64,000 bases of DNA from Porogramme epimiltina (lineage: Eukaryota > Basidiomycota > Agaricomycetes > Polyporales > Polyporaceae): NCBI GenBank assembly GCA_900155495.1, contig FTLJ01000339.1, forward strand, positions 1 through 64,000, written 5' to 3'. The position numbers and the translations under genes were made by a program. The notes beneath the pieces were generated by a model. The model saw nothing but the letters and a program-made list of their open reading frames with translations, was not told the DNA's origin and ran no database searches. Positions 14,228-57,229 of this stretch are shown in pieces. Each line of letters starts with the position of its first letter. Position 1 is the stretch's first letter.

Positions 14228-15290
14228 TCTGTGCACCGTGTGGAAAGCCCTTGCCTTGACAGGCGACTTGCAAGTCCGGGCGAGGACGCTGGACGTATCT
14301 ATGTGCTGCAAAACGAACACCGGAGAGTCACGGCGGATAAAGTATTTCTCAGATTGAACAGAAACAGGGACATTCAGGACATACACAGTCTCACCACCTG
14401 CATAATTGGTATGTACATCTTTCGCACTGATTGATAGACTTTGGGTGATAGTTGCGGTCGCCGTGGCCCACAGGGTACTACACTCATTGGTCGAGAACCC
14501 CCACTGCGGTCTGCTCCCCTTATTCTTAACGACGCGTCGAATGGGAGCTAAGCAATGGGATTTTAATCCCTCGGCGCAACATCAGGAGCCTGCTAGATAA
14601 TCGTGCAGTTTCAAACACGTTCGAGCAGTGCGTCGAGCCCTTGGTGGCGGAGGCACTGGGCTCCGTGCAGGAGGAGTTCGCGCGGATTCGCGGCAACGAG
14701 CACCCCCGGGGCCTCATCCTCCCGCATTGGTCAAAGCCCTAGCTAAGAATTACGGTGCGGGAATGTGCGTTGTGCATTCCGTACGTGTTTCCTCGCCACT
14801 TAACTTGACATACAGTTTTTCAGGCCAACACAAACAGCTTGCGCCTCCCTCGAAAATCCCGGCCTCTGCTCCCCTGATCTGGAACGACGCGTCAACTGGG
14901 AACTGTGACCTGTCCAATGCGATATCGCCCCCTCTGCCCATCTTCGAGAGGCCGCTAAAGAATCGCGCAGTCTCGACCGTGCTCGCGGACATAGAGCCAT
15001 TGGTCACGGACACTGAGCTTTGTGCAAACGTTCTTGGTGGGAATAGATTGGAATAGTTCCTAGGGGACATGCGTTGGAAGAGCATTCGCCACGGATTGAC
15101 CCTCGAGGAGATCGCGAAGATTCATGGCAACGAGCACACGTGGCGAGACCTGATCGCCCCCATCTTGGTAGAGAACACGGCGAGCGTATTTTCCCGCCTC
15201 ATTAGCAAGGATGATTGGGAGGGCACTACGTCGGTAGATCCCGATGTGCAGAAGTGCAGGGATATGCTGTCCAACTGAGCTCCGTAGACG
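14228..15290 (+). pseudogene. 5'-truncated DUF6535-family pseudogene
   Basis: Sequence similar to the family begins abruptly inside the end of the large core exon (LCTVWKALALTGDLQVRAR at about 14229) and continues through a relic of that exon (to 14408), one full-type unit (14452-14760) and a terminal unit (14816 to about 15290). The frame shifts between 14310 and 14330. The first unit has lost the segment that normally carries TFL..MDWN. Its splice donor is GA instead of GT at 14761, and the terminal unit is broken by further shifts. The transmembrane domain and everything upstream are absent. The downstream flank still matches that of DUF-A, so it arose by duplication of the 3' part of a DUF-A-like gene plus flank. 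Confidence 0.8.
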
Positions 15291-20283: not shown

Positions 20284-23200
20284 ATGTCAACTCAAGAACC
20301 TCAAGACGACACGGGCGAGGACGCCACCGCAATGATGGTGAGGGAGCTCACCAGCTACGTCGACCCAAGTGAAGTCTGATGACACATAACCCGTGCTGCA
20401 GGAGAAGCCTACTAGTAGTGACCCTAACTCGGAGTCGAATGAATCTGGAGCGGCGCCTGGTCAGGCTTCCGAGAAGGTGCGTGTCCTCGAGTCGCTGGTG
20501 CTATAATCTTCGCGAAACGCTGGAATTTGACGTCGGGGTGCACGTGTTTAGTCCCCCGAACGTTCGATACACTCTCTTCAACCCCGACCATCCTCTCACG
20601 AGCCAGGAATATCCCATCCTGCAATCGTCGACAGCACAGGTCAACCTCTCGGGGAGGTTGGAGCGGATCCCGAACGAACTACCCACGGAACAGTAAGCGA
20701 TCCACATTAGACCACACGGGTTTATGTTCATCGATCGGGCATATCGCTTCAGACCAACGGGTCCTCCGATGCTATAAATCCTGTCCCTTCGTCCTCCTCA
20801 ATCCCTAAAGCCACCGACAACAGCGAAACGCACGTGGTACGCTCTCAACGCTCTCAATAGCCACGTTCTTATCGAGCTGATATTCGCAGCAGCGTCCCAA
20901 CGCTCCTCAAGAGGGTTTGCCCCCGCAGCAACGTAGCAGCGGGGACGGTCAACAAAGCGGGCCTCCCGGTCCACTGCCACCTGCGGCTCCGAATGAGGTA
21001 CGTCTGCGCGTGGATATTGTATATATATACCCTCACTGATTATTTGTTGTGTCCGTTTGTAAAGAATACTGAAGAGGGTGAAGCTCCGATCCAAACAGAA
21101 GCGGTTAGTACTCCAACAGTAAGTGTAAGTTGTATTTTAGCGATGCTATAGAGGTTGATGGCACATTCCTACAGGATGAAGCGCCAGTAGAACCCCCGAT
21201 CAAAGAAGAGGAAATCCAACTTCCGGACGTTTTTGAAGTCAGTATACATCATTTATTGGTGATTGTTATACTTCGCTTGCTGACCAGACCTCACGAAGCT
21301 TGCAACAGGGGACTATTCGAAGAAAGAGAAGACAGAAGCGTGGCCTAAGGTGGCAAACACGGTCAAGGATTACAGCGACGAGCTAGTTGAGCAGTGGATC
21401 AAGCAGATAGACGGTCTTCTCACATTCGTAAGCTCTTTCGAACTGTTCGCGCAGGTGCACGTATACTCATCCATATATCTGATGACAGGCGGGTCTTTTC
21501 TCGGCCATTCTAACCGCCTTTAATGTCCAATCCTACCCACTCCTCCTTCCCGCTACAGCCGATCAAACAAATGTCATTCTCGCGAACATCTCAGCTCAAC
21601 TAGAGAGCTTCCGACTGAGCCCTCCCTTCGTCAACTCTACAGGGGCCGCTTTCAACCCTTCAGCTCCGCCGACACCATTCAAGGCGCCCCTCTACGCGAT
21701 ATGGCTCAACGCTTTGTGGTTCACCAGTCTTGTATTCAGTCTCGCTTCGGCCACGATCGGAATCATCGTCAAGCAATGGCTAAAGGAGTACAGCACTGGC
21801 CTCTATGGGACTTCGCGGGACATTGCGCGCCGCCGACAAGATCGATATGACAACCTCCAGAAGTGGCATGTCGAAATCATCGTGGCTATCATTCCCGTCC
21901 TCCACCTCATCGCCGCCGTACTGTTCCTCGCCGGGCTCCTCGTCCTCCTTTACAACATCAACAACATTGTGGCGGACGTCGTGGCGGTGTTCGTTGGGCT
22001 CATCCTTCTCTTCGTCGCCACGACCACTGTCCTACCTGCGGTATCTCGATCATGCTGCTACTACTCCCCACAGGCACACGCTTTCTTCATCGCAAAGAAC
22101 GGCATCGTGCGTCTTATGAAAGCCACGATGTTCCTAGTCGCTGGTTCAATCGCCATCGCATCACGCTCTCTCTTTGCACGTAACGCAGACCCCTCTTCGC
22201 CACGGTCACCCTTTCAAATTTATCGTGATTCCCGCAAAAAGATAAAGGAAGGGCTTCCCCCCTGGATGGCCACCCTCGTTTGGCGCAGTCGCGAAGTCTC
22301 TTTCGAGTCAGTAGCCGAAGATCTCGACATCAACATCCTCGTCACCGCGTACGACGCTACCCTCGACGCCGCCACCCTCCACAACTCCATAGCTGCCTGC
22401 GCCTCTGACGTGGCAGGACCGTCGTTTTGGAAGAAGTACATTTCCAAGCTGAAGAAAGCTGCCATGGACCGTTACGGCGCTTGGGATCACTCCTCCAAAC
22501 CAGCGCGGGCTCTTTTCAGAAAAGTCATCCAATGCATGGTCCAACGTCCAGACATAGCACACGCTCTTTATAAGGAACTAGTATTAGCGGCGCAGTGGAA
22601 AGCATCCAAGAGCACCGAGTCACTACCAGAGGAAAATGACGCGGCGGACGACCTCGGATTTCTGCGCAATACATGGCGTGAATTTATGCCCCTCAATGAC
22701 AATGTGGACAATGACAACGTGGACAATGACAGCGTGAACAGTGATAGCGTGGAGATCCGTGTAGGGGCACTGGTATCGACTTGCCGCGGGATCGACTCCG
22801 TGCCAGTGGGAGATGCGGATGAGGCATGGAACAGGATGAGCCAGTGGTCCGAAATCGACATGCATAGGGTGTGCGACCAAGTCACCGGAAAGATTGGTAT
22901 GTGCTCGTCGCGGTTCACTTACCAGACTTCATTAACATTACGTGAAGTTGCTGTTGCCGCTGCGCATCGATTGCGTTCGTTCGTCCAGCACCCCAGTCTC
23001 GGCTCCCCCAAACATCCACAACGGCACCCCGCATGGGAACTTGAAAATATCGTCGTCGGCCATCTACGCATCATCAGAAGGGTGTGGGCGAGTCGAGACG
23101 CTTCCAGTGACGCACTCACTGACATCGGGCCATTCATCACCGACGCACTACGCTCCGTCCAGACGTTTCTTCTAAAAATGGACTGGAGTGGTTCGGAGAG

Positions 23201-26200
23201 GAATTTGGACGAGGAAAGCGTGCAATTCGTTTCTGTTCTCGAGGAGATAGGGCATATTCATGGCAGCAGGCACACCCGCGATCTGATTACCCATCCCCTG
23301 ATAGAGGGATTAGGAAACACTTGCAAGACTTGTACGTGCACAGTGCATTCTACATGTGATCCTCGAGTCATTAACATCTCACAGTGGCAGAGGCCACGGC
23401 GAACAGTTTGCGCGCGTCCGTTGAACAACCCCTCCTCGGCTCCCCGAAATCTCCCCAACGGCACGTAGAATGGGAGCTGAACAATGTTGTCTTGACACAT
23501 TTGCGTGTCATTGGGAAAGTGTGGGAGAGTGCAGTGCTCTCACCCGCAGCGCTCGCAGACGTTCGGCCCTTCGTCGCAGATGCACTCCGGTCCGTTCAGA
23601 AATTTGTCCAACAGCTGGATTGGACTGGATCGGAGAGAAACTTGGGTAGGGAGAACGAATATCTCTTGTCAATCTTCGAGGAGATAGAGCAGATTCATAA
23701 CAATGATGACACCCGCAAACCACTCACCCGTCACCTAGTGGAAGCCCTGGGAAAGACTTGCAAGACGTGTATGTTCATAAGTCATGTATATACGACCCCC
23801 GAGATGCTAACTTCTAGCACAGTGGCAGAGGCTGCCGTACATAGTCTGCAGGCGTCTGTCGAAAAGCCCTACCTTGGTTCCCCCCTTGACTCTCAGCGGC
23901 ACGTGGAGTGGGAGCTGGACAATGTCGTCTTGGCCCATCTGAGCATCCTCAGGAAAGTGTGGGGGAGTCAAGTTGTCTCAAGTGACACCCTCGCAGACAT
24001 CCATCCATTCCTTATCGATGCACTGTGCTCCATTCAGAAATTCGTCCGGGAAATGGATTGGGATGGTTCTAAGAGGGACCTGGATGGGGAGGCAAGGTGT
24101 TTTACGTCTATCCTCGGGGAGATAGAGCGAATTTGTGGTGATGGAAACACATGCGATGCCGTTAAGCCTCCCCTGGTCGAAGCCCTGGCAAACACTTGCA
24201 AGGCTTGTACGCACTCGATTTACTCTACACATGATCACTGAATCGTTAACCGTAACCTTCCACACAGTGGCGGAGGCCACCGCAAACAGTTTGCGCTTGT
24301 CCGTCCAGAACCCCTGCGTAGGCTCCCCCCGCGATCCTCGACGGCACATAGAATGGGAGTTAGACAACGTCGTTTTGGCCCATTTGCGCATCATCAAGAA
24401 CGTGTGGGGGAGTCGAGCGGTCCCAAGCAACACCCTCGCAGATATCCAACCATTTGTCGTCGATGCACTCCGCTCCATTCAGACATTCCTGCTGGAAATG
24501 GATTGGAACGTCTCGGAAAGAAGTTTACGCGGGGAGCGCATTTCCTACAAATGGATCCTCGAGGAGATAGAGTACATTCGTAGCATCGAGCACAGTCCCG
24601 ATGCGAAGGTTGCCTCAGGTCCCTTATTTGAAGCTCTCGCAAGCATTTGCCGGGCTGGTACGTGGATGATTCCTTCTGTACTACACCGTACACAATCCTA
24701 ACTTTGCATACAGTTGCGCAAGCTGCCGCAAACAGTTTGCGCGTCTCTGTCCAGAACCCCCGCCTCGACTCTCCACACGATCATCGGCGACATATAGAAT
24801 GGGAGCTAAACAATGTCATCCTGGCACATCTGCACATTCTCCGACAGGTGCTGATGAATAAAGCGACTTCTAACGCACTTGCAGACATGGGACAAATCAT
24901 CACTCATATTCTCCGCTCCGTCCATACATTCCTACTGAAAATGGATTGGGAAGACTCTGAGAGGAACTTGGATGGGGAGAGCGAACATTTCATGTCTATA
25001 CTCGAAGAGATAGAGCAGATTCATAACAACGACAACACCCGGGATCTGATGACCCCTCACGTGGTAGAGGGCCTAGCAAACACTTGCAAGATTTGTAAGT
25101 CGGACATTCTAAACTCTATGTTACATGATCACTAAATCATTGACTGTCCTCCACACAGTGGCGGAGGCCGCCGCGAACAGTTTGCGCTTATCCGTCCAGA
25201 ACCCATGCGTCGGCTCCCCCCATAGTCCCCGACGGCATGTAGAATGGGAGCTAGACAATGTCGTCTTGGCCCACCTGCGCATCATCAGGACGGCATGGGG
25301 GAGTACAGCTATCTCAAGCAACACACTTACAGACGTCCAACCGTTCTTTATCGATGCTATGGGCTCCATCCAGAAATTCGTCCAGGAAATGGATTGGAAT
25401 AACTCCAAGAGGGACTTGAATGGGGAAAGCGAACATTTCGTGTCTATACTCGCGGAGATAGAGGATATTCGCTGTAAGGGGAACGCCCGCGACCTGATTA
25501 CCCCTCCCCTGCTTGAAGCTCTGGCAAACACACGCACGACTCGTACGTATATCCTATGTTCTATACTACACGATCTCAAAGTCACTCATTTTCCCCATGG
25601 CAGTGGCGCAGGCTGCTGCGAACAGTTTGCGCTTGTCCGTCCAGAAGCCTTGTGTTGGCTCCCCCCACGATTCTCAACGACACGTAGAATGGGAGCTAGA
25701 CCATGTCGTCTTGGCCCATTTGCGCATCATCCGGAAGGTGTCGGAGGGCGCAGCAGTCTCAGCCGCAGCCCTAATAGACGTCCAGCCATTTGTCACCGAT
25801 GCACTCCACTCCATTCAGACATTCCTCCTGGAAATGGATTGGAATGTCCCGAATAGGAGCGTACACGGGGAGAGTGTCTCGTATGGATGGATCCTCGACG
25901 AAGTAGGGCATATTCGTGACATCGAGCACCCCCCCGATGCAAAGGCTGCCGCAGCTCCCTTAGTTGAAGCCCTCGTCAAGATTTGCCAGACCGGTGCGTG
26001 GATGGTTCATTTTATACAGAGCCGCTCAGTCTTCAACTTCGCACGCAGTTGCGCAAGCTGCAGTAAACGGTCTGCGTTTATCCATCCAGAACCCGTGTGT
26101 CGGCTCCCCCCATGATCCTCAACGCCACGTAGAATGGGAGCTGGACAGCATCGTCTTACCCAATCTGCGCTTCATCAGGAAGGTGTGTGAAAGCGCAGCG

Positions 26201-26542
26201 CTCACAGATGTCCGGTCATATGTCACCGATGCACTCCGCTCCATTGAAACGTTCCTGTTGGGGATGGATTGGAATATCTCGGAGAGGAACCTGCCCGGGG
26301 AGAGCGTATCGTACCTGTGGATCCTTGAAGAGATAACGCACATTCGTGGAAGCGAATACGGCCAGGGCCTGCTCTCTGTCGAGACCCTATCGACTGCGTT
26401 TTCACGTCTCATCGGCGAGGTCGACTGGGAGCACACCACGTCAAAACATTCCGATGTACAACAGTGCAAAACCATGTTGGTCGAGATGCGCTCGACAGTC
26501 GGGATATCGAGTTCGTCTGGAGCACGTGGCCACGAAGCTTGA
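20284..26542 (+). CDS. DUF-C: DUF6535 membrane protein with 8 C-terminal repeat units
   Basis: Seventeen exons: 20284-20337, 20402-20476, 20552-20692, 20753-20836, 20890-20997, 21065-21118, 21175-21237, 21299-21427, 21489-22896, 22948-23331, 23385-23768, 23823-24206, 24268-24657, 24714-25094, 25159-25542, 25604-25993, 26049-26542; 1768 aa, one open frame. Residues 1-236 come from eight phase-0 exons, mostly Ser/Pro/Gln/Glu-rich. The core exon starts AGLFSAILTAF; predicted membrane helices fall near residues 237-255, 305-331, 363-391 and 396-421, followed by SCCYYSPQ and LDINILVTAYDATLD. A linker holds a five-residue repeat (VDND type). Eight helical units of about 127 residues follow, ending in the long terminal unit (FSRLIGEVDWEH). 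No catalytic motif is seen. This is the cleanest large member and should be a multi-pass membrane protein with a long soluble C-terminal solenoid (inference). Confidence 0.85.
22695..22751 (+). repeat. In-frame 15-base minisatellite inside DUF-C
   Basis: About four tandem copies of a 15-base unit (GACAATGTGGACAAT type) encode NDNVD-NDNVD-NDSVN-SDSVE in the linker between the core domain and the repeat units. The unit is a multiple of three, so copy changes keep the frame. Paralogs have no counterpart here, though DUF-A has a GATGACAGT triplication (about 3219-3247) elsewhere in its core exon. Confidence 0.7.
22948..26542 (+). repeat. Exon-encoded repeat array of DUF-C (8 units)
   Basis: Seven units of 381-390 bases (22948, 23385, 23823, 24268, 24714, 25159, 25604 as starts) and one terminal unit (26049-26542). 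All intervening introns are 51-64 bases. Each internal exon starts and ends in phase 1. Consensus blocks: VAEAAANSLR at the start, GSPHDPQRHVEWELDNVV, then LAHLRII, DALRSIQTFLLEMDWN, ILEEIEHI. Several units share SVQNPCVGSP exactly, so they are closer to each other than to units of DUF-A or DUF-D, as expected from duplication within the gene. Confidence 0.9.
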
Positions 26543-27654
26543 GTCGTCTGAGCCACGCATATACATTCGCGGACACACCAAACTGGTACGTTGAGTTCTG
26601 ATTCATTTTACAAATGTACGCTCACATCGATACTACAGTACGTTGTGTATTCAAAGCACGTGAAGCAGGTGGTCGGTGCTGGATAGACGAGGCAGGTGTC
26701 GAAAGGGGCGCATCGGCTCTTGGGCAACCATAGGAAACGAAGGGGCGGACGGGCGCCTGACATCTGATGTGTTGCTTTCGACCTTTTTGACACTCCGGTT
26801 CAAGTTCTATATGCATAAGTGCGCGTTGTGTATACTTTGGTCGTGCCAATTTGGGAGCTCTCAAACGCCATATACCTAAAGGACGCGCAAATTGGAGATG
26901 TGAGATTCGTGAAGGGCTGTGCCGCATGACGCAGGACACGCGGACGTACCCATGAGGGCTTCGCCATTGCATAGCGAAATAACGACGATATAGCGCGAAG
27001 ACGCTTGATGACCCGAGTTCGCTCTCGCAGGGTGACTGAGAGAATGCGGGCGTGGGTCTCATTTGCCTGAGATGCCCAGTCCGTTAAGTTCCCCGGATGT
27101 GCACTGCGTGATAGTCGCTCTGATGAAAGGATAGCATGAGGTGCGAGGAAAATGACGGCATCCTAAAGTTCTGCCAGGGTAGTAGCATATAAGTAAGAGC
27201 TCGCGGCGATGGAGAAGCACATACAGCGACAAAGTTAGTGACTGCTGCTCATTGGACGATACGCACACAGAAAACTCCCTCCATGAGCGCGAGATCGTAG
27301 TGGGGTAGAGCGTTTTGCAGCAGAATCGTAGTCTAGGTACGCCTTAGCTCAAGACCATACGCATGGGGCATTCTGAGTCCGTTGTACCCTCCTGATATCT
27401 GGCGGATAGGCTTCTCGAAGCAACAGCAGGCGGCCACTGGGTGTCGCGTTCTTCACGAAGGGAGGGTCGGCTGCTGGTCTCGAGGGGCCTCCAAGACAAC
27501 ACATTATATTAGGGCGACATGGAGTAGGCGGGGTTGAGGAATGTTCTGAAGAAGAGGTTAGGCATAAGCAAAGCGAAAGCAAGGCGACACACCAGGAGGC
27601 TGGGGGACGTATATCAAGTACAAGCCCAACAGGGTCTAGCTTCGCTCTCCCCAT
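26543..27654. other. Intergenic; no gene supported
   Basis: The longest frame (26622-27062, minus, 146 codons) has no recognisable features and no visible splice context. The 3' UTR of DUF-C is expected at the start of this stretch. Confidence 0.35.
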
Positions 27655-30600
27655 TCTACGTTGCATGTTGCTGTTTCAAAATGCCTGTCAGGAAAGAAAA
27701 TGGTTTAGAGAGCAAGATATAGGCGATGATGTTCCAGTGAAATCATTGGCTGACACTGAACATGAACGGGGGTGTAAGCGGCAAGTCATGGCAATTGGTA
27801 CCAGGGACGGAAGAAAAGTCACTCACTACTCACCTCTCCGGGACACACGGGTCGATTCGGAGCGGTATTGGCTAGCCAACACAACCGGGGAGGACTTCTA
27901 GTGGTCTTGCGTATTGGGATTGGACGCGCAATTGGACGCGCAATGGCTCGATAGCGACCTTCAAGTCTGGCGTGCTCGCGGGGCTGGGCTTACTTCTGCA
28001 GTGGAGTCGGAGCTCCCGGCCAATGCTCGGGCGCTTGGGTTTGAGGGACCCCGCCCACCGCACGTAGTGACCGTCCTCCTCCCATCTGCCCACCGCGATG
28101 CGGCATGCTCTCCACCCTATCCTCTGCTCCTCACACCGCTCCTCGGCGCACTGCGAAAAGGCTACGGGAGTAAGAACGCCCACCGAATAGCTGCTCATCC
28201 TTTGCTCGGGAAGCTCCACCTCCACTCTCTAATATCACCTGTGCTCCGCCTTCGGAGTCTGCCCGCCCAGTCTTTTGTCCGCACAAATATGCCAATGCAC
28301 TCGTCCAGCCCTGCAGCGTCTCGTCAGGACGCCTCCCTTGTCGTCGTTTGTCGGACCCGGAGGTCTGCTCAGGATGGTTGATGGGGACGAGCGTATGATG
28401 TGCGTCATGCTTCTTTCTCTCTTCGCATTTTCCTGACTGCTTCTTCGACGTATACCTATTTCATTCCACAAGTAGGTAGACTATGGGAAGGCACGTCGCT
28501 CAGTACCACTTTCCTACCATTTGACCCTCAAATTTGGCTCGTCTCGCCCATGCACAGACCTCGAATCGAGTCACTACGCCCAAGCCCTCCTCTCATCATC
28601 GTACATCAAAGGTTAAACTTCGCGGCTTACCTCTAATCGGGCTGTTGAGGTGTATCCATGTCTTCCCCCGCATTTGTCACTGGCTACGCGTACGTTCCAT
28701 ATCCATCGGCTTCAACGTCCTATTGAATATTTTCTTCATACAGTAGGACCATCGCTTCCAAATCTCAAACGGACGTATGCAATACACAGGATGAATACGA
28801 CCTCTAACTACTGGCGGGAGTATGTCCGACTGATGTCGCCCTCAGCGTGACGACAGTCACGAAGATGCGCGTCGTCATCACCAACACACCCTCTCCTTCT
28901 CCCATGGGCTTTCATTGTCTTTCTCGCCCTCCATCACCCCCTTCCGCCGACGCACCGCCCGGTAGTCCTGCCCTCTCCGCCTCATGCCGAAGGCCGCCTA
29001 CTCCAGACATGCGGGGCGAATGCAATGCGGCCAAATCCACACGCTTGTCGGATCGACCTCGAGCTAAGGTCCCTGGTACCGCCCCGTGTCCTGGGGAAGA
29101 CCCCCTTCACGAATTCATTGGAGGCTATGGGTATTGGAGCTTGCGCACGCTTCTGCAAGCACTGGAGCGCGAAGATAGAATTGGGGCTTGTGGGACAAGG
29201 ATCGGGAGGGAATATTACGTGGTATGTCCTATCGCATCCTCTGCAGTCGTCCAAGCACAGACTTGTCGGGCAGGCCCTCGAGACATCTCCTCGGCTTCAA
29301 CGCAAACTGCTCCTTGCTCCCTTCTCTTGCAAGATTCTACCCCCGTACCATGCTGGACTGTCGTCGAACCTCCACATCACCAACACCTGGCACGTCCTCA
29401 AACCCTCGGCCAATCGACCTGGAACGCTCGCGTAGCCGCGACTTTTGACGCACCTGTCCACCCCTTCCGGCACCGTCCTTCTTCGCCTCTGCCGCGCGCG
29501 CCGTTCTACCTGCCTCTCTCCACATAACCCCACTTCCCTCCTCTCTGAAGGCACCCACCGTCGTAACACGCAACCAGTGCAAGCACCGCGTCAGAGGCAG
29601 CACCCTTCGACACGGAAACAAAGGGCTTCTCTAGCACCGCGTCGTTTCGCTCTTCTTCAAAGAGTATGCGCGCAAGCGAACGTCAGTCCTTGGTTCATGC
29701 AGCCGGCGGCGATGGAGATGCTGTTCACGGGCACGTCAAGGACGAGGCCCCCGATTCCGACCATGGAGGCTGGCGCGGAATGGGCATGTTGCTGACAAGT
29801 TCTTCGAAACCGCCTATGATAGGAGGTACGCTCCAGGCGACGCTGAAGGTACGCTTCGCTGCTTGCCGCCCCCCTACACGCAAGATAGTTAGACTGACGG
29901 CGCGCCACGTCGGCGGGTGTATAGCCAGTATCGACAGTGGATGCTTGCAGCGCGACACCTCCAAAGCCCGATACCCTACGAAGCGGTTTCTTCCGCCGCC
30001 GGTGCGCAGGTGCGCAGGGGCCGCCGATGATGAAGCAGAATGGCGTAACCTCACATCGTGACGGTTTCAGGCGGCAAGGTCGAGGACGTTCCAAGCGTGC
30101 GCAATGGCCACGTCGACGTGTCGGCGCAGAACACGCCGGGAGGCAGCTCCGTAGCTCGCACTTGGAGACCCCGGCAACCTACCGACAACCACGTCGTCCG
30201 CGCTGAGCGTGTTCGCGAAGGCGCCGTCGTCACTCTCTGCGCTCACAAGGTCCCAAGATCATGAATACGTAGAAGTGGCCCTCACCCCGAGTCCCGTCGT
30301 CGACCGTACCCGCAGTAGTACCGACGCTGGACGCGCTCGTGGAAATGGGCCTGGGCTTCCTGGTCGACTTTGGTGTCGACTCGCTCGACCCGACCTTCCT
30401 CTCCAGGAAGCCAAGGATCAGCTTCGAGCGTGACAATGCCGCGTGGTTGAACCCGCGAACGCGGCGTGAGCCCATAGCCGGGCTCGGGGCTGCGCGACCA
30501 AGCGTGCCGAAGGGAGGTTGGGTTCCCCAGAGGACCCACGAGCGCGGCGTCTCGTGTCGGCGGGCGTGCGGTACGACGCGGGATCTCTCCGCCGTATACG

Positions 30601-31110
30601 TGCACATATCCGCGTACGGAGTTACAATGTCGACTTTACTGCTTATCCGAGTCCTTTGCGACCATTTATCACTCCAAACTTGCCGCCGCCCTCCCCCGAG
30701 GCATATTTTCCGCCCATCCCAGTACCCTTTCGCTCTCCGCTCGCTGCCTGCCCCTCATTCTGTCCATCGCTACGTCATCGTCATATCAATTATACTGCCA
30801 GTGCTCATTCGCGCGCGCCATGCGGGATCTCGTTCTCCTGGCTGCTAGTCAAAGTCAGTAGTGGCACTGTCCTCACTTGTAAACTACCTGCTATTCCACG
30901 CCTGAAAGCATCTTCGCATGACCAGAGCTCCTTCCCGAGCGAGAGAAAGCGAGACCCTGAGGGTGGACGGTGCGTGAGTCAGCGTCAACGCGCGCAGGTC
31001 TGTGCCCAATGGGCGCTTGATCCAACGGAGTCCTTGCTCCAGGCTGTAACGGTTCTTCTCAACACTCAATCCTCATCGCTGTTTCTTGAGCAAATCTCTT
31101 CTGCTTCCAT
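27655..31110 (+). repeat. Dispersed repeat family A, copy 1
   Basis: From TGTTGCTGTTTCAA onward the copy parallels 53440-55080 and 43740-46930 for long distances, e.g. TGAACGGGGGTGTAAGCGGC, CGTCCAGCCCTGCAGCGTCT and CTACTGGCGGGAGTATGT. Copies 1 and 2 alone share the distal 1.5 kb, including GCCGGCTCGGGGCTGC-type sequence near 30.48 and 46.3 kb. No frame stays open in all copies, and no reverse transcriptase, integrase or transposase motif was seen. It may be a decayed gene family or a non-autonomous element; its ends are not defined by terminal repeats that I could find. Confidence 0.65.
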
Positions 31111-31149
31111 TGACCCTCAGATCTGAAGCGCTGATCTCCTGCCTCTGGC

Positions 31150-32900: not shown

Positions 32901-33252
32901 CTCAAGGTTAGCTTGACGACAGGACGATGAGGAGCCCAGTCCGCAAGGGCTCGGACCTCACGGCAGCAGGCATGCATGAGCCTACGTTTTGAAGAACCCG
33001 GAGGTGGCGTACCGGGATCACGATGCGCACGGCGCTGACTTCCCATTCCGGCACAACATGCATGCATACAATGCAGATTCTGAATGGCTTCACCGCCCAG
33101 ACTATGATCTTCGTGCCATCCGTGCAGAAGAATTGATGGCGCTCGATGAAAGGTGTAGGAAATGTCGACGTTGAACATGGTTTGAAGGTCTGTCCCTCAA
33201 AGATGGCGCGGCGGGGCTGTGACAAATGTGAGAGCAACAATAGCTGTTAGGC

Positions 33253-33734
33253 TATGGTGCACTCCGACATCTAGACACCGCTACTTTTGTCCAACAATAA
33301 GCGCCCGTTCCAGGTCACGTGCCGCGGCAGTCCCCTCAAGGGTATCTCGCCTGGTCGAATTTTTTGCGATTTCGTGCGCGAAAAGCGAGTTTATCTTATT
33401 GGATAGCCTCTACGTATGCGCCTTTGGTAATTCAACTTCTCTACTTCTCTGAGCAGTGGCATAATATGAGAGATACACTGAGCTTAGGGACATGACGTCA
33501 CGGTGCTGACCTGTAAGGATTTACTATATATGGTATTTGGCCCCAGTGTCACGTGCTTTGGCAGGTGCGAAATATTCAACTCGGTCAATTTTGAGAATTT
33601 CGAAAAACCGTCTTGAGGATCTGTTCCTCCTGTGAAATGCTCGCGATTGACTAGACCGATAAGGGGTTGGCTTAAAACTAGGTGACTTATAAACTTTGTG
33701 CAAAAGTAGCGGTGTTTAGGTGGAGTGCACCATA
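33253..33734. mobile_element. Non-autonomous DNA transposon (MITE) with TA target duplication
   Basis: Element 33255-33732 (478 bases) is flanked by TA at 33253-33254 and 33733-33734. Its ends are inverted copies about 42 bases long: TGGTGCACTCC at the left, GGAGTGCACCA at the right, then CACCGCTACTTTTG inward at the left and CAAAAGTAGCGGTG at the right. The inside encodes no transposase. TA duplication and TIR layout fit the Tc1/mariner superfamily (family knowledge), so it was presumably moved by an enzyme encoded elsewhere. The ends are still near-identical, so insertion is fairly recent. Confidence 0.85.
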
Positions 33735-34929
33735 GGTAACGGAGAGACAAGCTGCTCAGCATTTATCGCATCCTTGGGAGAGAGTCGAGCGGGGCTAGTG
33801 GACAGGAGAGGGAGTTGCAGGCGCAGTCATCATAACGTTCAGAGAGACGACTTGACCATTATCGCGGGCGTCCAGAGTACACTGTGTAGCTGCGTCCCTA
33901 CGTGCACACAGCATCAAGAAATTAGAAGAGGAAAGTTAGCGAGGTCATGGCGACGGAGTGTCAATCCCCAGATGACGGCGAGAGGTGGTGAGATGAAAAC
34001 ATTACATGCGGCGATACGAACATGGGGACAGCTGTCTGCACTGGCCTTCTTGTCCGGTCCGTGGAAGGTTCAGCCTCCATGCCCTACTAATGAAAGTCCC
34101 CTCTACGAGCCCGCCTGCCCATTACTCCTACCATGCCCACATTAGCTCGCATGTTAGGCTTAAGTTGCCAGCGTCCGAAGACTGAGCTCACGGGTAAAGA
34201 TGTCTGGGGAACCGGCCGTATCTCTATCCTATGCAAGCGTAGTCGCTTCCGTCTGTATGCCCTTGTGCGATGCGCACAGTAGAGTGGACAGCGTCTGAGA
34301 AGAGGACGGGATGTTGACTACACGCTGAGAGTTCTGAGTGCGTGACGCGTCCTTCGGGCATGAATCAACGTCGGGCGTTTCAACGTAGAGTCAGCAGATG
34401 TGCTGCTGGGAGGCGAGCTACCTACAAAGCGTATTCATTGGACGGAGTTAGCCTAGCAGGAATCGCAGCGTTCATGGAGGATAGACAATCCGTCACACAC
34501 CGTCGTACATCAGTGCTACTAGATGGGGGAAGCGCTGGCTATAGTCAGGTGCATGTGGGCAGGCCGCGAACGTGGTGCCGCACGCCCTCATAGAGAGGAC
34601 TATGCAGCATGAGTGCGTCTATGGCTGTATGCCGGCCGGTGGCTCGAGGGAGGGAAGAGGAACCTAGGCAACGATACCGCGCCGCGAGAAACCTCTAACC
34701 TTCACGATCGTCTCCTCACAGCCCCGGTCTAGACCCCGACAGACTCACTCAGGGACGGGCGCTTATGATAGTCCGATCCACGGCCGATGCGGCGAACTTG
34801 TTGTACCGCGGGGGCGACCCCGCCGGATCCGATTCTACAAAAAACATAGCTACATTTCCCCACCATCACACTTCAACTTAGTGATGTTGTACAGCACAAG
34901 TCTCTAATTTCACTTGCTTGGCCTCCCAC
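33735..34929. other. Intergenic; no gene seen
   Basis: Only short, unconvincing frames. Around 34555-34600 (CGTGGTGCCGCACGCCCTCATAG) there is a faint match to 9695-9725 and 320-345, possibly a relic of the same old gene as at the left edge. Confidence 0.3.
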
Positions 34930-36005
34930 TCACAGCGCGTTCGCTTCCAAAACTTCCACGCTCTTCATAAACGCGTCCACAATGTTCTCCACCTCCTGAT
35001 CCGTGACGTTATACGCGGGCGAGAGCATGCAGTGGTTTCCCCTCTTCCCGAAGAAGCTCGCGCCGCCCGTGAAGCCCATGATAACCAACTCATTCTGCAG
35101 CGCGCGCGCCTGCACCTCCATCGCAGCGTCTTCCCTCGTACCCCTTCGCCGTCGCCTCCTCGCCCTCGAAGTCGAAGTCGTTCCCCCACCACGCTCCGGC
35201 GCTGCGCACGTCAAATGTGAACGGCTTCGCGCGCGCGCGGTCACCCTGCAGCCGCGCGCGGAGCACGGCGCCCATCTTCGGGCCCCACTCGCGCACGCGC
35301 TCGAGTAGCTTCTCCTCCGCGAGCTTCTTCTGCACCGCGAGTGGTGCGGCGCACGCGAGCGGGTGCGCCTGGTACTTGTGGCCGTGCTTCAAGCCCGCGG
35401 CGCCGTTGATGGCGTCGGCGATGCGCTTGTGGAGGAGCACGGTGCCGATCGAGGCGTACCCGCCGCCGAGGCCCTTCGCGACAGCCTGGAGGTTGGGTAC
35501 CGCGCCGTCACCGAAGGTCTGTCTCCCGTGCGTGCAAGGTACCCAGGCCTGAATGAGGAACGAGGGGGGGATATGCAGCATAGATAAGGGCGAAACGGAG
35601 GGGGGAAGACGTACGGCCCATTCCATTCATGGCTTCATCTAGGATGAAGAGCGCGCCGTACTTGTCACACACAGACTTCATCGCCTTGAAGTAGCCCTTT
35701 GGAGGGGTGACCACGCCGGTGGTGGCTCCGACGACCGTCTCCGCAACGACTGGGATGCATCATCTATACCGTCAAAACGCGCACATAGGCCCGGAAGAAA
35801 TATACTCACAACCAATGACAGCATCCGGGCCCAGCTCCTGGAACTTGTCATCCATCTCCTTCCGCAAGCGCTCAACATACTGTTCTTCTGTCTCGTCCTT
35901 GCTTTGGAATCGGGCCGCGTACACAGGCGAGATGTGGTAGAAGGTGTCAGTGTCGAGGAGTGGGGTGTACAGCAGACGGCGAAGAGGGTGGTATGTGAGG
36001 CCAAG
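34930..36005 (-). pseudogene. Class III aminotransferase pseudogene, 5'-truncated
   Basis: Minus-strand exons 36005-35810, 35749-35615 and 35548-34930, joined by two normal GT-AG introns, encode the middle and C-terminal parts of a PLP-dependent class III aminotransferase. Visible blocks: SPVYAARF, ELGPDAVIGFVAETVVGATT, ALFILDEAMNGMGR, the PLP-lysine segment AVAKGLGGGYASIG, YQAHPLACAAPLAVQK, and GKRGNHCMLSPAYNV before the stop. The N-terminal part, including the cofactor phosphate-binding region, is missing: a stop precedes the first matching codon and sequence identity ends there. Two frameshifts are present, one near 35505-35525 before VPNLQAVAK and one near 35130-35150 after FDFEGEEA. Intact family members make about 450 residues; this copy cannot make a working enzyme. 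Confidence 0.85.
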
Positions 36006-36190
36006 TGAGTTAGATTACTTAAGCGGGAGAGCGAGAGCCTCACTTGAAGCCTGAAGGAGAGTCAAAAAGGGAAACGGCCAGCACGACCAATGAGCGAACA
36101 GAACGGTGGGTTGGATTACTTAAGCGGAAGGGCGGGAGCCTCATTCCAAGGGGAGCCCAAAACGGAAGGCGGCTTTTCCACCAATAGAAT
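36006..36190. repeat. About 100-base imperfect direct repeat at the pseudogene's broken end
   Basis: GGTTAGATTACTTAAGCGG-type sequence followed by GAGCCTCA occurs at about 36006-36045 and again at about 36108-36147. The first copy abuts the point where aminotransferase similarity ends, so it may mark the rearrangement that removed the 5' part. Confidence 0.5.
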
Positions 36191-36905
36191 CACGCCATCA
36201 ATGATGGTGGTACGAAATGACTAAGCAAATCTTATGTAATCCGCGCTTCCTCCATTGTAAATCCGATTCACTGCGTAGAATCGGAACACGTTGCTTCCCT
36301 CTTCGCCTTCCGGACAAGAACCGCAGACTCCTTTCCGGATGCGTGCTCATCGCTCCCGCCGCGCTCGCTCACATGTACAGCACAGCGTTGAGTGTCCCCC
36401 TTTCCGTCCCCCGCGGCATCCACACTTCACCAGACGATCTTCCCCATTGGCTCCGGCCCATCTCGGTCGTTCCCTTGGACCCGTTCATCAACTCTACTGC
36501 GTGTCTTCGCCTTAGATCTCATGTCCCGTTCTGCTCATGTTCTTCACTCCGCCATTCATCTCGTACTTCTTCGATGTTAGAGCGTCATTAGTTGATGGTG
36601 TCTCCGGCGATGTCTATTTGTTTCATCATCCGAGAAGCTGACCTCAAGTATGCTTCCTTAGGGTGCGTTCACCGCTCAGTGCCTGCGATTCAGGGTATGT
36701 GCTGCAATGGCACCAGGTTCCTGTACAAGGTGTTCCATACACGCTGTAGTACACCACTACGAACTATCGCGAGCATATATACCCTTGTATATCTTACTGG
36801 GGGACGCATCCTTTTGCCATCGCTTGTTCTTACGAGTGTCGTATTTCTGCTCACTCAATTCTCGCACAACACTTCTTTCGAGCTCCAACGTACCACCGGA
36901 ACGAC
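36191..36905. other. Intergenic, 5' flank of DUF-D
   Basis: No gene seen. The last 130 bases are pyrimidine-rich leader and promoter sequence, with the TATATA listed separately. Confidence 0.4.
36776..36781 (+). promoter_or_regulatory. Possible TATA box of DUF-D
   Basis: TATATA in CATATATACCCTTG lies about 125 bases before the DUF-D ATG and matches the DUF-C counterpart (CTATATACCTTG) over most of its length. Confidence 0.4.
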
Positions 36906-39900
36906 ATGAGCGTGGAGAATTCTGGGGTGACACCGGTGAGCGAGAATGCTATCTGCGTCCCTCCGCCAGTCGTCTTATAGCTACTACGCCCTCCAGGAGA
37001 TGACCGGGATCATCGGAACTTCTAGGAGGTCCTCTAAGGTGTGTGTGCTCACTGGTGCTACCTCTTTCCAGAATCCCTATATTCCGCTGACAACGGGTGC
37101 ATATTTCAGTCCCGTAAATCCTCGTTTCACTCCCTTCGTGGCCAAGAATCATGTCCTGGATCAGACACACCCAATCCTCCACTTATCGACGGTGAAGGCG
37201 AATCACCGGTGAGGCCCATAGCAAGTAAAGAAGAGATACCCCAGCCGGTGAGCAGCTCTCGATGCCGTTGTAGAGGTATAGGAGCGCCTCATGACCCGGG
37301 TTGAAGGTCGCACAGACGGTTGCACCTCCAGCCAACAACGCGAATGTCGCGTCCAACCAGATCCCCACTGCCCCTGGAAGCGGCAACATACTTGCGGTGG
37401 GTTTAACCGCTCTACTAATATCGACTGATCACGCTCATCAGGGCCATCAGACCCCACCCGCCGCGCCAGGGGATGATGAATCGCATAGACCGCACGGGGA
37501 CCTCAATCTACCGCTACGTAAGGCGCAGAATGTGGTGCGTGCGGATACGAATATTGCCTCGGACATTATCTTTAATGCTGATATGTTCAGCAGAACGCGG
37601 AGGTACACGAAACGATGCCTACGGAACTAAATGGTAACCTGTCTGTGAGTGTGCAGCACGATGCTATAATGGCGACAGCATTTCGGATGAAGTATACTGA
37701 AGCTGTCTCCTATAGGATATGGGACCCGGAATTCTCGGCGTGAAAAACGAGAAAGTCCAATTATCAGAAATTTTCGAAGTCAGTATTGATCCAGGTCCCG
37801 CTATTCCCATACGATTGCTTACTAGACACCACGAAGCGCGCAATGAGGGCTTATATGGAGGAGAAGGCAGAAGCATGGTCCAATGTAGCGAAGACGGTCG
37901 AGAGCTACAGTAACGAGATGGTAGAGCAGTGGATCAAGGATATAGATGATCTTCTGACATTTGTACGCCACTCTCGATTTGGCACTCTTTTATCTTGTGT
38001 ACTAACCAATATATGCCACGATAGGCGGGTCTCTTCTCGGGTATCCTGACAGCCTTCAACGTTCAGTCATATCAACTCCTCCAGTCCGCACCACTCGATC
38101 AGACAAACAATATACTATCAAATATTTCTGCTCAGCTCGAGAGTTTCCGGCTCAACCCATCGTTCATCAACTCGACCCAGCCCGCCTTCAATCTTTCGTC
38201 TCCACAACAACCATTCAAGGCGCCTCTCTACGCAATCTGGCTCAATATTCTTTGGTTCGCTAGTCTCGTTTTCAGCCTCACGTCGGCCATGGTCGGGATC
38301 ATCGTCAAGCAGTGGTTGAAGGAGTACAGCACCGGCCTCTACGGCAACTCGCGGGACATTGCGCGTCAGCGACAATACCGGTACAACAGCCTAGAGAAGT
38401 GGCGTGTCGGAATGATCGTAGCCGTTATTCCTGTGCTCCTCCTCATCGCTGCTGTCCTATTTCTCGCAGGCCTCCTTGTCCTCCTCTACAGCGTCCACCA
38501 CACCGTCGCCCGGGTTGTGTCCGGGTTCGTGGGTCTCCCCCTCTTCTTTGTCACTGTGACAACTATACTTCCCGCGGTCTCTCGGTCATGCTGCTACTAT
38601 TCTCCTCAAGCGCATGCCTTCCTCCGCCTAATGAAAGGTGCGACAAGTCTTCGAGAACTATCACTCTCTCGACTGGGACCATACAGCCCGTTTTTCAAAA
38701 TAGTGCGGGTCGTTGCATGGCTCCAAGACCGCCGTGTTGCATCCCTTAACCCGTTGAAAGAATATAACAAGATTGGCAAAATAATATACAAAAGGTTTAC
38801 CTACTGGATGCCCACCCTCGTCTGGCATGGTGCCGGTGAAGTCTCGTCCCAGTCAGAAGTTGCAGATCTCGACGTCAACATTCTCGTCACCGCTTACTCC
38901 GCTACTCTCGATGTCGGTACTATCGATAACTCCATTGTTGCCTGTGTTTCTGATGGAATGCGCGTTCCATTCTGGAGCAATTACATTTCAAAGCTGGCGG
39001 GAGCTGTCGTCAGCCGACTCGGCGTGCGATGGGAGGAATTGCCCAACCACATTCACAACGTCTTCAGCAAGGCTGTTCAATGTATGATACAAAGTTCAGG
39101 CACAGCGCGCGACCACCTTGGAGGGTTAGTCCTCGGAAATACAGCACAGTCGCTTGGAATTTTTGGGTTGGAGAAGCACGTTTCAGAAATACCCAAGGTT
39201 CTGTGCACGGTATGGCAAGACCTCCCCCTCACGGGCGACTTGCAGGCACGCGCGAGGGCACTAGTATCTATGTGCTGCAAGACAGACATAAAGAACGCAA
39301 ATGAAGCCTGGTTCAGAATGCATGGTGACGATGACATTGAAAACATATGTGATCCCGTCACTTGCACGCTTGGTATGCACGAACGACGGTATCCAGCTTG
39401 ATGAATGCTCACTAACTTTGAGCCGTAGTTGCGGTCGCTACTGCTTGCAGGCTGCATTCATTCGTCGAGAAGCCAGAACTCGCCTCCCCGTATCCAGAAC
39501 GAGTCGTTATTAATGAGCTGGTCGATGTCGTCCTTCTTTCTCTATCCACAGTCGGACAGTTGCTGGAGAATGATACGGTTTCAAGCGCCCTTGTGGACAT
39601 CGAACCATTCGTCACGGACACACTCAAATACGTACAAGAATTCCTGCGGAAAATAGATTGGGAGAACTCCAAACGGTATCTGCCGGTGGAAAGTTGTGTT
39701 TTTGAGGACATTCTCCAGGTGATCGAGCAAATTCAGGGCAACGAACACGCACGATAACACGCACGATATCTAATCAAACCTCCCTTGGTCGAAGCCCTGG
39801 AAGTAACAGGCAGGAACCGTACGTCCATCGTGCATGTCGTTTACGATTCCTTCGCCGCTGACTCTGCACATAGTTATGCAGGCCCTCGCAGACAGCTTGT

Positions 39901-42900
39901 GCGCGTCTATCGTTAGCCCTCGCCGCGGCTCCCCTCATCCTCAGCGACACATCGCGTCGGAGCTGGACAACATGGTACTACCCCCTCTGCGCATCATCGG
40001 AGAGCTCGTGGATAATAGCGCAGTTTCGACCACGCTTGAAAGCTACAAGGAAGTTTTTGCGAATGTACTGTGCCACGTGGAGATATTCATGCAGCAGGTG
40101 GCCAACACGGACTGGAATAGTTCTGAAAGGGATACTAGGGGGGGGAGTGATTCTTTCACAATGATCCTACGAGCCATTTCCCAGATTCACAGCAACAAAC
40201 ACGCTCGAGATCTAATCGAACCTCCCTTAGTCGGGGCCCTTGCGGTGACAGGAAAGAATCGTACGTCCATCGTTCACTATGTCGTATACATGTATACGAT
40301 TCCTTCGCTTCTGACTCTTCCGCAATACAGTTATGCAGGCCCTCGCGAAGCGCTTGCGTGCGTCCATCGATAATCCTCGCCTCGGCTCCCCTCACCCACG
40401 ACGACACGTCGCGTGGGAGCTGGACAACGTAATTTTGACGCCTCTACGCACCACCATAGAGCTCTTGCGGAATCGTGAAGTTTCGTACAAGCTTGAAGGT
40501 GACAAGCAAATTTTCATGGATGTACTCGAATCCGTGCGAAAATTCCTGGAGGGAATGGAGCACACCGGCCCCGAAAAGCACCTGCAGATGGGGGACTGGT
40601 CTTTGAAGAACATTCTAGTGGGGATAGAGCAGATTCAAGACAAAGAATACACCTGGGACCCGATCAAAGTTTCCTTGGTCGAGGTCCTGGCAATGACAGG
40701 CAGGATTCGTAAGCACATCTCGGACTCCGTACGCGATTGCTTCTCCCCTAACTTTGCATATAGTTATACAGGCTCTCACAGACGACTTGCGAGCATCCGT
40801 CGAAAACCCAAGCCTCGGATCCCCCTACCCGCTAAGACACGTCGCATGGGAACTGGACGAAGTGATTATCCCCCCTTTGCGCATCATCGGACAGCTTGCA
40901 GAAAATCGTGCCATTTTGAGTGCACTTACAGACTACGAACATGTTTTTACTACGGAGGTACTCGGCCCCGTGCAAACGTTCCTGCAAGGAATGGACTGGT
41001 CTGTCCCCGAAAGGAACTTGGGTGGAGAGAGCTCTTCCTTCAGGTATATTATCCGTGAAATCGCGCGTATTCACATCAACCAGCGCAGCCAGAAAATCAT
41101 CCCCTCTCCCCTAGGAGAAGGACTGAGAAACACTTATGGGGCCGGTATGCGCATCGTTATGTCTACACACAGTTTTCTGACCTCTTTGCATGCAGTTTTG
41201 CAGGCCAATGCAAACAGCTTGCGCGCATCTATCAAGAACCCCCGTCTCGGCTCCCCCCATCTACACCGACATGTCGGATGGGAGCTGGACAACGTAATTT
41301 TGCCTCCTCTGCGTATCACCGCACAGCTGCTGAGGAACCGGGAAATTTCTAACATGCTAGTGGGCGTCGAGTCATTCGCCGCGGACGTACTTAGCGCTGT
41401 GCAGACGTTCGTTTCGGGGATGGACTGGACCGGACCCGCGAGGAACCTGGGTAGAGAGAGCTCTTCCTTCAGGGATATTATCCGTGAGATCGTGTGGATA
41501 CACAGCAACCAGCGTAACCAAGACTTTGCCTCCTCTTTCCTAGGCAAAGCACTAGGAAACACTTATGGAGCTGGTATGCGCATAGTGCCACCTACACACA
41601 GTTTACTGACCTCTTCGCATGCAGTCGCGCAGGCTATCGCGAACAGCTTGCGCGCATCTATCAGGAATCCCTCCCTCGGCTCCCCTCATCAGGACCGAAA
41701 TGTCGAATGGGAGCTGGACAACGTGATCATCCCCCCTCTGCGCATCATCGAAGAGCTCGTGGGTAGCCGCGCGGAAGTTTCGGCCGCGCTTGGAAGCTAC
41801 GAGGAAGTTTTCGCGGATGTACTGGTCCCCGTGCAGACATTCCTGAAAGGCATTGTCCGGATGGACCAGAACGTCCCCGGGAGGAATTTGGGTAGGGAAT
41901 GCTCTTCTTTCGCGACGATCCTACAGATAGTTGCCCAGATTCACGGCAACGAGTATATCTGGGATCTGATCAAACCGTCTTTGATCGAAGCTCTGGCGTC
42001 GACGGGCTGGATATGTACGTCCACCGTGCATTCAATACGCGATTCACTCTCCCTTAAAATTTGCATTCAGTTATGCGAGCCACCACCAACAACTTGCGCA
42101 GATTCGTCAAGAACCCCCGTCTTGGCTCTCCCCATCCGCAACGACACGTTGGATGGGAGTTGGAAAACGTGATACTGCCTCCTCTGCGCATCATCGGAGA
42201 GCTCGTGGATAATCGCGCAGTGTCGAGCGAACTGGAAGGCTGCGAGGAGATCTTTGCTGATGTACTGCAGCCTGTGCAGACATTCCTTGAGGAGATGGAT
42301 TGGAATAGTCCGGGGAGGGACCCTGGTAGGGAGAGCTCTTCTTTCGCGATGATCCTACGGGCGGTTGCCCAAATTCGTGGCGGGGACCTGATCAAGACTC
42401 CCTGGGTCCCAGCCCTAGCAGTGACTTGCAAGACCCGTACGTCCATCTTGCACTTCGTATGCGATTTCTTCTCCAACTTCGAATATAGTTATGCAGGGCC
42501 TCTCAGACAGCCTGCGCGCATCCGTGAGAAATCCCAGCCTCGGCTCCCCTCACCCGCAACGACACGTCGCATGGGAGCTGGACAACGTGATATTCCCCCC
42601 TCTGCGCATCATCGGAGAGCTCTTGCGGAGCCACGAAATCTTGGAAGAGCTTGAAGGCTACTACAAGCGGTTCATTGAGGACGTGCTGGGTTTCGTGCGG
42701 ACGTTCTTGCAGGGAATGGATTGGAGTAGCGCCGAAAGGAACTATGGATCGGAAGCCTCATGTTACAAGAGGATCCTCAATGCGATCGCTCAGATTCATG
42801 ACAACTCAGGCACCCAAGACCTTGTTACTCCTACCTTGGTCGAAGCCCTTGCAACGACGTGCCAGAATCGTATGTTCATTGCACTCTCCGCCTGCGATTT

Positions 42901-43424
42901 CCTCGCCTCTAACTTTGTATATAGTTGTGCCTGCCCTCGCAGACCGCTTGTACGCTCCCGTCAGGAACCCTCGCCGAAGCTTTATCTGCCCTCGTCCGCA
43001 ACGGCGTGTCGAGTGGGAGCTTGACAACGTGATCATACCCTCTCTAGACACCGTCAAGCCGCTGCTAAGGACCAGCGCAGTTTTCGACGCGTGCGCTGAG
43101 CACATTAAGCCATTAGTCAAGAACGTAGTCGGCTCTGTGGAGAACTTCCTATTGGGAATGGATTGGAATGACGCCGAAAGGAACTTCGGGTGGGAAGCCC
43201 AGTGTTACGGGAGGATCCTCGAGGATATCACGCAGATTCACGACAACGAGCACACCTCGGACCTGATCACCCCTACCTTGATCGGAACCCTAACCAGGGT
43301 GTTTTCACACATCATCGGTAACGATCACTGGGAGCACGTTGCGTTGGCACATCTCCATATGAAGAAGTGCAGAGATGCGCTCGTCAAGCTGCGCTCCATA
43401 GTCGGGATATCAAGCGCGTCTTGA
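36906..43424 (+). CDS. DUF-D: DUF6535 protein with 9 repeat units, interrupted by one stop
   Basis: Eighteen exons: 36906-36935, 36997-37038, 37110-37247, 37316-37396, 37442-37534, 37591-37644, 37716-37778, 37837-37962, 38025-39372, 39429-39818, 39874-40260, 40331-40708, 40764-41144, 41196-41573, 41625-42014, 42071-42436, 42489-42869, 42925-43424. Exons 1, 3 and 4 have exactly the lengths of DUF-A's (30, 138, 81), and exon 7 matches DUF-C's (63). The core exon carries AGLFSGILTAF, KQWLKEYSTGLYG, the paired long hydrophobic helices and SCCYYSPQ. All splice phases fit, so the model runs 1842 codons, but the first repeat exon holds an in-frame TAA at 39755-39757 made by a 12-base tandem duplication. 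As it stands, translation stops after 767 residues, near the end of the first unit; the other eight units still look intact. Either a very young pseudogene, a shortened allele, or a sequencing error. Confidence 0.75.
39429..43424 (+). repeat. Exon-encoded repeat array of DUF-D (9 units)
   Basis: Eight phase-1/phase-1 exons of 366-390 bases and a terminal exon of 500 bases; introns are 51-70 bases. Units starting at 39874, 40331, 40764, 42071 and 42489 share a VMQAL/VIQAL/VMRAT opening and use LPPLRIIGELV where DUF-C units have LAHLRIIRKVW. The first unit (39429) is the most diverged at its start (LASPYPERVV) and includes the 12-base duplication. The last ends FSHIIGNDHWEH..CRDALVKLRSIVGIS like other terminal units. 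Confidence 0.9.
39740..39769 (+). repeat. 12-base tandem duplication creating an in-frame stop
   Basis: ACACGCACGATA occurs twice in succession. One copy would read EHARYLI, matching the EHTRDLI of other units; two copies read EHAR, stop, HARYLI. The insertion is a multiple of three, so only the stop, not the frame, is affected. Confidence 0.85.
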
Positions 43425-53330: not shown

Positions 53331-53439
53331 GTCGTGAGTACTCGGCAGGTTCCGCTCTTTATCACTTACGGCACCTCCTGTTTATCGAACAATCCTTTGG
53401 GCCTGCCCTGGCTAATCCAAATTCTTGCCGCCGTGTAAG

Positions 53440-57060: not shown

Positions 57061-57229
57061 TAACTAGTGCCTGCAGGTACTACATATGCGATGTGCACGC
57101 ATTTTAGGGGGCGTCACACTGATCCCCCTCATGATCATTATATCCTTTAAATTTACCTCGACTCCCTAATTTTGCTATGATCCCAGTCCTTCCAAATTCA
57201 TACGCGGACGCTCAGGCCAATGTCCTGTT

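Follow-up and report, generated by a model that had tools for sequence, protein, structure and literature searches.

The HNWD genes of Podospora anserina (het-d, het-e; NACHT-WD40) are described as varying in repeat number, as exchanging repeats within and between paralogues, and as undergoing diversifying selection on a few positions of each repeat, located where the repeats interact (PMC1805685, PMC12222747). Brown algal LRR-ROCO genes are reported to encode one repeat per symmetric exon, with shuffling of the exons and diversifying selection on few surface sites (PMC11378527). The 90-bp-exon LRR genes of Tetrahymena form arrays of same-length, same-phase exons in very variable number, a pattern ascribed to unequal crossing over (PMC6564038). 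A full-text search turned up one paper that names DUF6535, as an entry in a table of down-regulated genes (PMC12387923). A preliminary description of the locus reported here knew of no published account of an exon-repeat architecture in DUF6535 proteins, and our search of the full-text literature likewise found none.

We analyzed positions 1 to 64,000 of contig FTLJ01000339.1 from the assembly of the basidiomycete Porogramme epimiltina (GCA_900155495.1), a stretch of 64,000 nucleotides denoted here as the window. To find repeats we used a profile built from six window units, which scores 127–181 bits on all 22 units of genes A, C, D and E (best score in five shuffled windows, plus strand only, 5.3 bits) and places the units of gene A at 3943–5164; it also picks up a single divergent unit on the minus strand and unit fragments at 14.5–15.2 kb. 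The repeat unit comprises ~118 residues, is all-helical by prediction, and occurs in one copy per exon. The main exons of A, C, D, E and of a minus-strand gene exceed the Pfam cut-off for PF20153 (DUF6535), a match confirmed by hmmscan for A, C and the minus-strand gene. A Pfam scan covered seven window proteins, namely the main exons of two genes, the ORF on the minus strand, three single units and the E array ORF; among these, DUF6535 alone reaches the cut-off. The genes and their parts are positioned as follows.

2433..2981, plus strand: gene A, DUF6535 domain (PF20153, 160.7 bits); the main exon ends at 3876 (donor from the splice model)
3938..4315, plus strand: gene A, unit exon 1 (126 codons, phase 1-1)
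4367..4744, plus strand: gene A, unit exon 2 (126 codons, phase 1-1)
4800..5290, plus strand: gene A, terminal exon (unit 3, C-terminal tail and stop)
11153..12824, minus strand: minus-strand DUF6535 gene (DUF6535 at 12366–12824; single divergent unit at 11153–11521)
14229..15182, plus strand: "gene B", a degenerate relic (main-exon scrap at 14229–14336 and two broken units)
21489..22896, plus strand: gene C, main exon (DUF6535 at 21489–21953, four hydrophobic stretches, then a helical middle region)
22948..23331, plus strand: gene C, unit exon 1 (128 codons)
23385..23768, plus strand: gene C, unit exon 2 (128 codons)
23823..24206, plus strand: gene C, unit exon 3 (128 codons)
24268..24657, plus strand: gene C, unit exon 4 (130 codons)
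24714..25094, plus strand: gene C, unit exon 5 (127 codons)
25159..25542, plus strand: gene C, unit exon 6 (128 codons; stretch 25161–25541 used for structure prediction)
25604..25993, plus strand: gene C, unit exon 7 (130 codons)
26049..26542, plus strand: gene C, terminal exon (unit 8, tail and stop)
38025..39372, plus strand: gene D, main exon (DUF6535 at 38025–38489)
39429..39818, plus strand: gene D, unit exon 1 (in-frame TAA at 39755–39757 inside a 12-bp tandem repeat, 39744–39768)
39874..40260, plus strand: gene D, unit exon 2 (129 codons)
40331..40708, plus strand: gene D, unit exon 3 (126 codons)
40764..41144, plus strand: gene D, unit exon 4 (127 codons)
41196..41573, plus strand: gene D, unit exon 5 (126 codons)
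41625..42014, plus strand: gene D, unit exon 6 (130 codons)
42071..42436, plus strand: gene D, unit exon 7 (122 codons)
42489..42869, plus strand: gene D, unit exon 8 (127 codons)
42925..43424, plus strand: gene D, terminal exon (unit 9, tail and stop)
60827..61297, plus strand: gene E, DUF6535 domain (PF20153 match)
62211..62591, plus strand: gene E, unit exon 1 (127 codons)
62646..63169, plus strand: gene E, terminal exon (unit 2, tail and stop)

The unit counts of the preliminary description (A 3, B 1, C 8, D 9, E 2) agree with the profile search for A, C, D and E. Its one-unit gene B is instead a relic with stops and frameshifts in all three frames, which holds the remains of two units and retains a 30–36-residue scrap of main exon from outside the DUF6535 domain; a PF20153 search found no DUF6535 match on the plus strand near 13–15 kb. 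With the in-frame TAA in its unit 1, gene D is broken in the assembly, or polymorphic, or affected by a sequencing error, and it may be dead or polymorphic.

Other repeated DNA was observed in the window. In the main exon of gene C, a 15-bp minisatellite of four copies (22694–22753) lies between DUF6535 and unit 1 and encodes in-frame five-residue repeats. Positions 34796–36295 are multi-copy in the genome, where C198 and C426 each carry a copy at 94% and dozens of shorter matches occur, and contain a minus-strand ORF that we take to resemble a class III aminotransferase fragment. Positions 50500–53500 are partly repeated at 55180–57082 with 64–69% identity.

The 41.9-Mb assembly (926 contigs) contains 72 PF20153 matches, and leaving out 14 short pieces we tallied 58 loci. 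The unit is present in at least 29 of the 58: 13 loci have a single unit and 16 have two to nine. These counts per locus, from two unit searches, are lower bounds because the first queries were weak. Units begin 880–1,414 bp past the DUF6535 domain in all unit-bearing loci. Beyond the window, arrays are found on contigs C474 (seven and two units), C673 (four and two), C557 (four), C475 (three), C435 (two) and C69 (eight and seven), with two-unit matches on C342 and C717 as well. One four-unit array (L030, C673:300–4700) has a short main exon with a 248-residue open frame, in which a PF20153 search found no DUF6535 match; it is a truncated or diverged gene.

The closest named relatives come from polypores such as Dichomitus, Lentinus and Trametes. 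Polypore PF20153 proteins share the N-terminal domain, and their C-terminal segment distantly matches one unit; they differ in that 118 of the 120 listed relatives have no recognizable unit at E 0.01 (two have it). None of 7,995 scored candidates (842–2,679 residues) matched the multi-unit region. An hhalign comparison of the unit profile with the C-terminal region of 45 DUF6535 proteins, a selection from the 120 listed relatives, scores 38.5 (probability 62%), and the best of 30 column-shuffled controls scores 17.8. Judged by this one moderate profile match, the unit is most likely the ordinary, single C-terminal module of the DUF6535 family, amplified in this lineage.

The arrays consist of consecutive symmetric exons of the same phase, one repeat each. 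Across 49 unit junctions from 14 loci, the best frame-keeping GT-AG intron is in phase 1 at 47 and in phase 0 or 2 at none; the two junctions lacking an intron model are in the B relic and at D unit 1, which contains the stop. Under an alternative scoring, one C69b junction falls in phase 0 with a poor score of 1.8, and the first scoring places it in phase 1. Candidate introns with a good donor and a YAG acceptor number 4, 59 and 3 in phases 0, 1 and 2 over the 49 junctions. Since the introns are copies of one another, their phases do not count as separate events. The intron 5′ of unit 1 is likewise in phase 1 in 14 of 14 modeled genes. Thirty-two of the 48 modeled inter-unit introns have a length that is not a multiple of 3, so their removal is needed to keep the frame, and one of the other 16 contains an in-frame stop. 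The spliced models are open to the stop codon in 13 of 14 cases, the exception being D with one stop.

Internal unit exons in the window measure 122–130 codons in the splice models and modeled inter-unit introns measure 51–70 bases, both as the preliminary description had stated; every exon length is a multiple of 3. Its claim of one unit per symmetric phase-1 exon holds for the internal exons and fails for the last unit, which is always fused to the tail in the terminal exon and is therefore not swappable alone as a cassette. Introns had also been said to be duplicated along with the exons. Intron core identity is 0.649 within genes (n = 108), 0.611 between genes (n = 1,020) and 0.559 after shuffling (n = 400), and the introns of C69a and C475 are duplicated nearly exactly (98% core identity; D introns 4 and 5, 81%). 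Co-duplication is thus seen overall and is recognizable in young arrays such as C69a and C475, but not in gene C, whose introns have a mean core identity of 0.61, not above that of introns from different genes. The unit-exon anatomy is real and genome-wide.

The likeness to LRR-ROCO genes extends to one repeat per symmetric exon, shuffling, and few selected surface sites; LRR-ROCO genes have 72-bp LRR exons in phase 2 and a ROC-COR GTPase, whereas here ~380-bp helical exons in phase 1 accompany a membrane domain. With the Tetrahymena genes the likeness concerns the exon-array part alone, that is, arrays of same-phase exons whose number varies per gene. The Tetrahymena genes differ in encoding LRRs, in their phase 2, in numbering thousands, and in lacking a membrane DUF6535 domain.

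Structure prediction of one unit (gene C exon 6), which the preliminary description had proposed, yielded an all-helical model of five helices (pLDDT 85, pTM 0.74). The main exon is predicted to be helical throughout (pLDDT 73) and has four hydrophobic stretches by hydropathy. Comparison with solved folds gave no convincing match for the unit or the main exon, and none naming a function. We also considered the unit as an LRR and rejected this assignment, as it has no Pfam LRR match and its model is all-helical. In an array, the last helix of one unit would lie against the first helix of the next where the intron is removed. This makes a continuous solenoid likely, and the C-terminal solenoid of stacked units proposed in the preliminary description is plausible.

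A 66-unit tree groups all eight C units together (96/78) and, separately, D units 2–8 (98/96), and each array therefore grew inside its own gene. Unit number had been claimed to be changeable, and it does differ between close relatives: A has 3 units and C474a has 7, the identity of the two genes across the DUF6535 block is 92.4% over 778 bp, and in the unit tree their first units pair with each other, as do their last units. In a 12-gene tree of the DUF6535 block, the nearest relative of D (9 units) is C474b (2 units) and that of C (8 units) is C673b (2 units), each with support of 0.84. Units 6 and 7 of C69a are a tandem duplication, 97.6% identical over 381 bp, with the intron copied along (cores 98%), and the units of C69a and C69b mostly pair by position, with single-unit duplications.

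The DNA 3′ of gene A (5400–8400) is duplicated on C673 and C474 at 75–87%, and shorter parts of it recur near 29.4 and 45.3 kb at 70–73%. The flank of gene A was thus copied as well, and the cluster expanded through segmental duplications that comprised both gene and flank.

We find that 3′ modules have moved between loci. Silent differences between A and C673b affect 10/124 sites of the terminal exon and 84/154 of the DUF6535 domain (p = 3e−17). Of the 10 pairs compared, four of which involve C557, five have terminal exons with much lower silent divergence than their DUF6535 blocks (p = 3.7e−7 to 5e−18). Terminal exons are much younger than DUF6535 blocks among A, C474a, C474b and C673b, and the DUF6535 tree and the terminal-exon tree conflict accordingly. 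For A and C474a, the domain and the terminal exon do not differ in age, and among the four pairs with C557 three lack such a difference and one is weakly different (p = 0.019). Identity between A and C673b is 87–89% in the terminal exon, then 69% and 54% past the stop; the likeness of A and C474b continues >1 kb past the stop codon. Conversion run tests detect over-long identical runs in 6/91 pairs of A-clade units, 0/28 pairs of C units and 2/21 pairs of D units 2–8. Unequal crossing over and conversion both fit the exchange data and are not separable here. The contigs with A, C474 and C673 may be neighbors in the genome.

Turnover by unequal crossing over, as the preliminary description proposed it, thus finds support in A and C474a, in C69a and in the terminal exons, but the C and D arrays show no clear recent change. 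The rapid change attributed to those two arrays is not supported: the median proportion of silent sites differing between units is 0.59 in C and 0.55 in D, so both arrays are old, and the conversion run tests detect few over-long runs in D and none in C. Median Ka/Ks between units is 0.28 in C and 0.39 in D, and site models found no positive selection in C units or in D units 2–8 (2ΔlnL 0.00 each). To call the locus "built to" change array length implies a purpose, of which the sequence gives no sign. The silent divergence, Ka/Ks, run tests and missing selection signal of C and D are what would be expected of an old exon duplication with no present role, in which unit number now has no functional effect or is fixed, as is the case for many modular proteins. 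We judge this explanation unlikely, since it misfits the difference between A and C474a, the duplications in C69a and C475, the exchange of terminal exons, and the site-specific selection in A-clade units described below.

Ka/Ks of the DUF6535 block is 0.06–0.19 in 10 pairs (A, C474a, C474b, C673b, C557). Terminal-exon Ka/Ks is 0.69–1.90 in 10 pairs (A, C474a, C474b, C673a, C673b) and lower, 0.33–0.38, against C557. Among the 30 unit pairs of lowest Ks, which overlap and are not independent, 17 have Ka/Ks >1; a whole-exon excess of amino-acid change (pN > pS) reaches p < 0.05 in just 1 of 10 pairs. For 14 A-clade units, comparison of site models M1a and M2a, implemented in our own code with branch lengths fixed up to scale, gave a 2ΔlnL of 61, with ω of 4.7 at ~9% of codons. 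Because recombination can mimic positive selection, we ran null simulations. The maximum 2ΔlnL was 17.7 in 40 neutral sets with five block-specific trees and 12.1 in 20 single-tree neutral sets, with numeric overflow warnings in some simulated fits.

The selected sites lie on helix 27–47 (40 and 44, with weaker support for 28 and 32) and on helix 86–107 (87, 91, 92 and 95). Outside the two helices, residue 1 and, with weaker support, residue 122 are selected as well. Core positions are not among these sites, which are hydrophobic in 6–41% of units. Unusual variability at the six best-supported helix sites recurs in the independent C array (p = 0.0016) and across a further 22 units (p = 0.0002), but not in D2–8 (p = 0.41) or in the C69 units (p = 0.11). 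The A-type clade, which is the youngest, thus has diversifying selection at a small number of surface positions of two helices and a strongly conserved DUF6535.

Could the same values arise from relaxed constraint, with redundant young copies, some of them dying, and Ka/Ks lifted towards 1? The B relic, the stop in D and the clustering of the clade's whole-exon Ka/Ks around 1 would agree with it. We nevertheless think it quite improbable: frames are kept in 13/14 models, the core positions of the units remain hydrophobic, and relaxation is not expected to raise ω above 1 at few sites, yet the M2a fit does so beyond the null.

Copy-number change, exchange between paralogues and few selected positions are common to HNWD and the A-type clade; C and D units show no such selection, and their repeats, unlike those of HNWD, are not homogenized. 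The systems differ further in that HNWD proteins are NLRs with WD40 β-propeller repeats >80% identical, whereas here a membrane DUF6535 domain is combined with a helical repeat, one per exon. We considered membership in the fungal NLR/HNWD domain class (NACHT/NB-ARC with WD40, TPR or ankyrin) and rejected it, DUF6535 alone being over the cut-off in the seven window proteins scanned. HET, NACHT and WD40 were absent from the main exons and units covered by the Pfam scan.

Nothing in the sequence calls for alternative splicing, and short fungal introns are usually removed by intron definition, which counts against it. That symmetric unit exons are skipped or chosen so that one gene yields many array lengths is highly improbable, even though every internal unit exon is phase 1-1 and could be skipped without loss of the frame, and such use is reported for brown algal ROCO genes with LRR exons (PMC11378527).

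On balance, we think it probable that these genes encode membrane-anchored DUF6535 proteins with a helical binding array that is renewed by cassette gain, loss and exchange together with point selection. Each protein would carry a DUF6535 domain that crosses the membrane about four times, followed by a helical middle part, one to nine units and a short tail. Because the unit exons are phase 1-1, crossing-over between misaligned unit exons keeps the frame, and it could thereby add or drop whole units. The stacked units would form a putative binding array that may recognize a variable partner, whether non-self, a microbe or a symbiont, and its specificity would be kept changing by gain, loss and exchange of cassettes plus point selection. 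The C and D arrays would be older products of the same process, without visible present turnover. The evidence for turnover and selection comes from one strain.

Selection on one surface together with the swapping of units would be the pattern expected of a recognition surface. By analogy, the best reading would be a membrane-anchored helical binding array diversified much like HNWD repeats on an unrelated scaffold, with a putative ligand and function. More tentatively, these genes could constitute a non-NLR recognition repertoire of membrane receptors, with a helical sensor of traded exon cassettes, as a membrane counterpart of HNWD and perhaps serving allorecognition or the sensing of microbes; we regard this as possible rather than probable.

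DUF6535 defines a large fungal family of unknown function, and the unit is a second, so far unnamed domain. The selected residues name a likely contact surface and so provide a testable role for DUF6535 proteins. If the recognition reading is true, a cassette-based recognition family would have been built independently in fungi other than those with NLR repeats.
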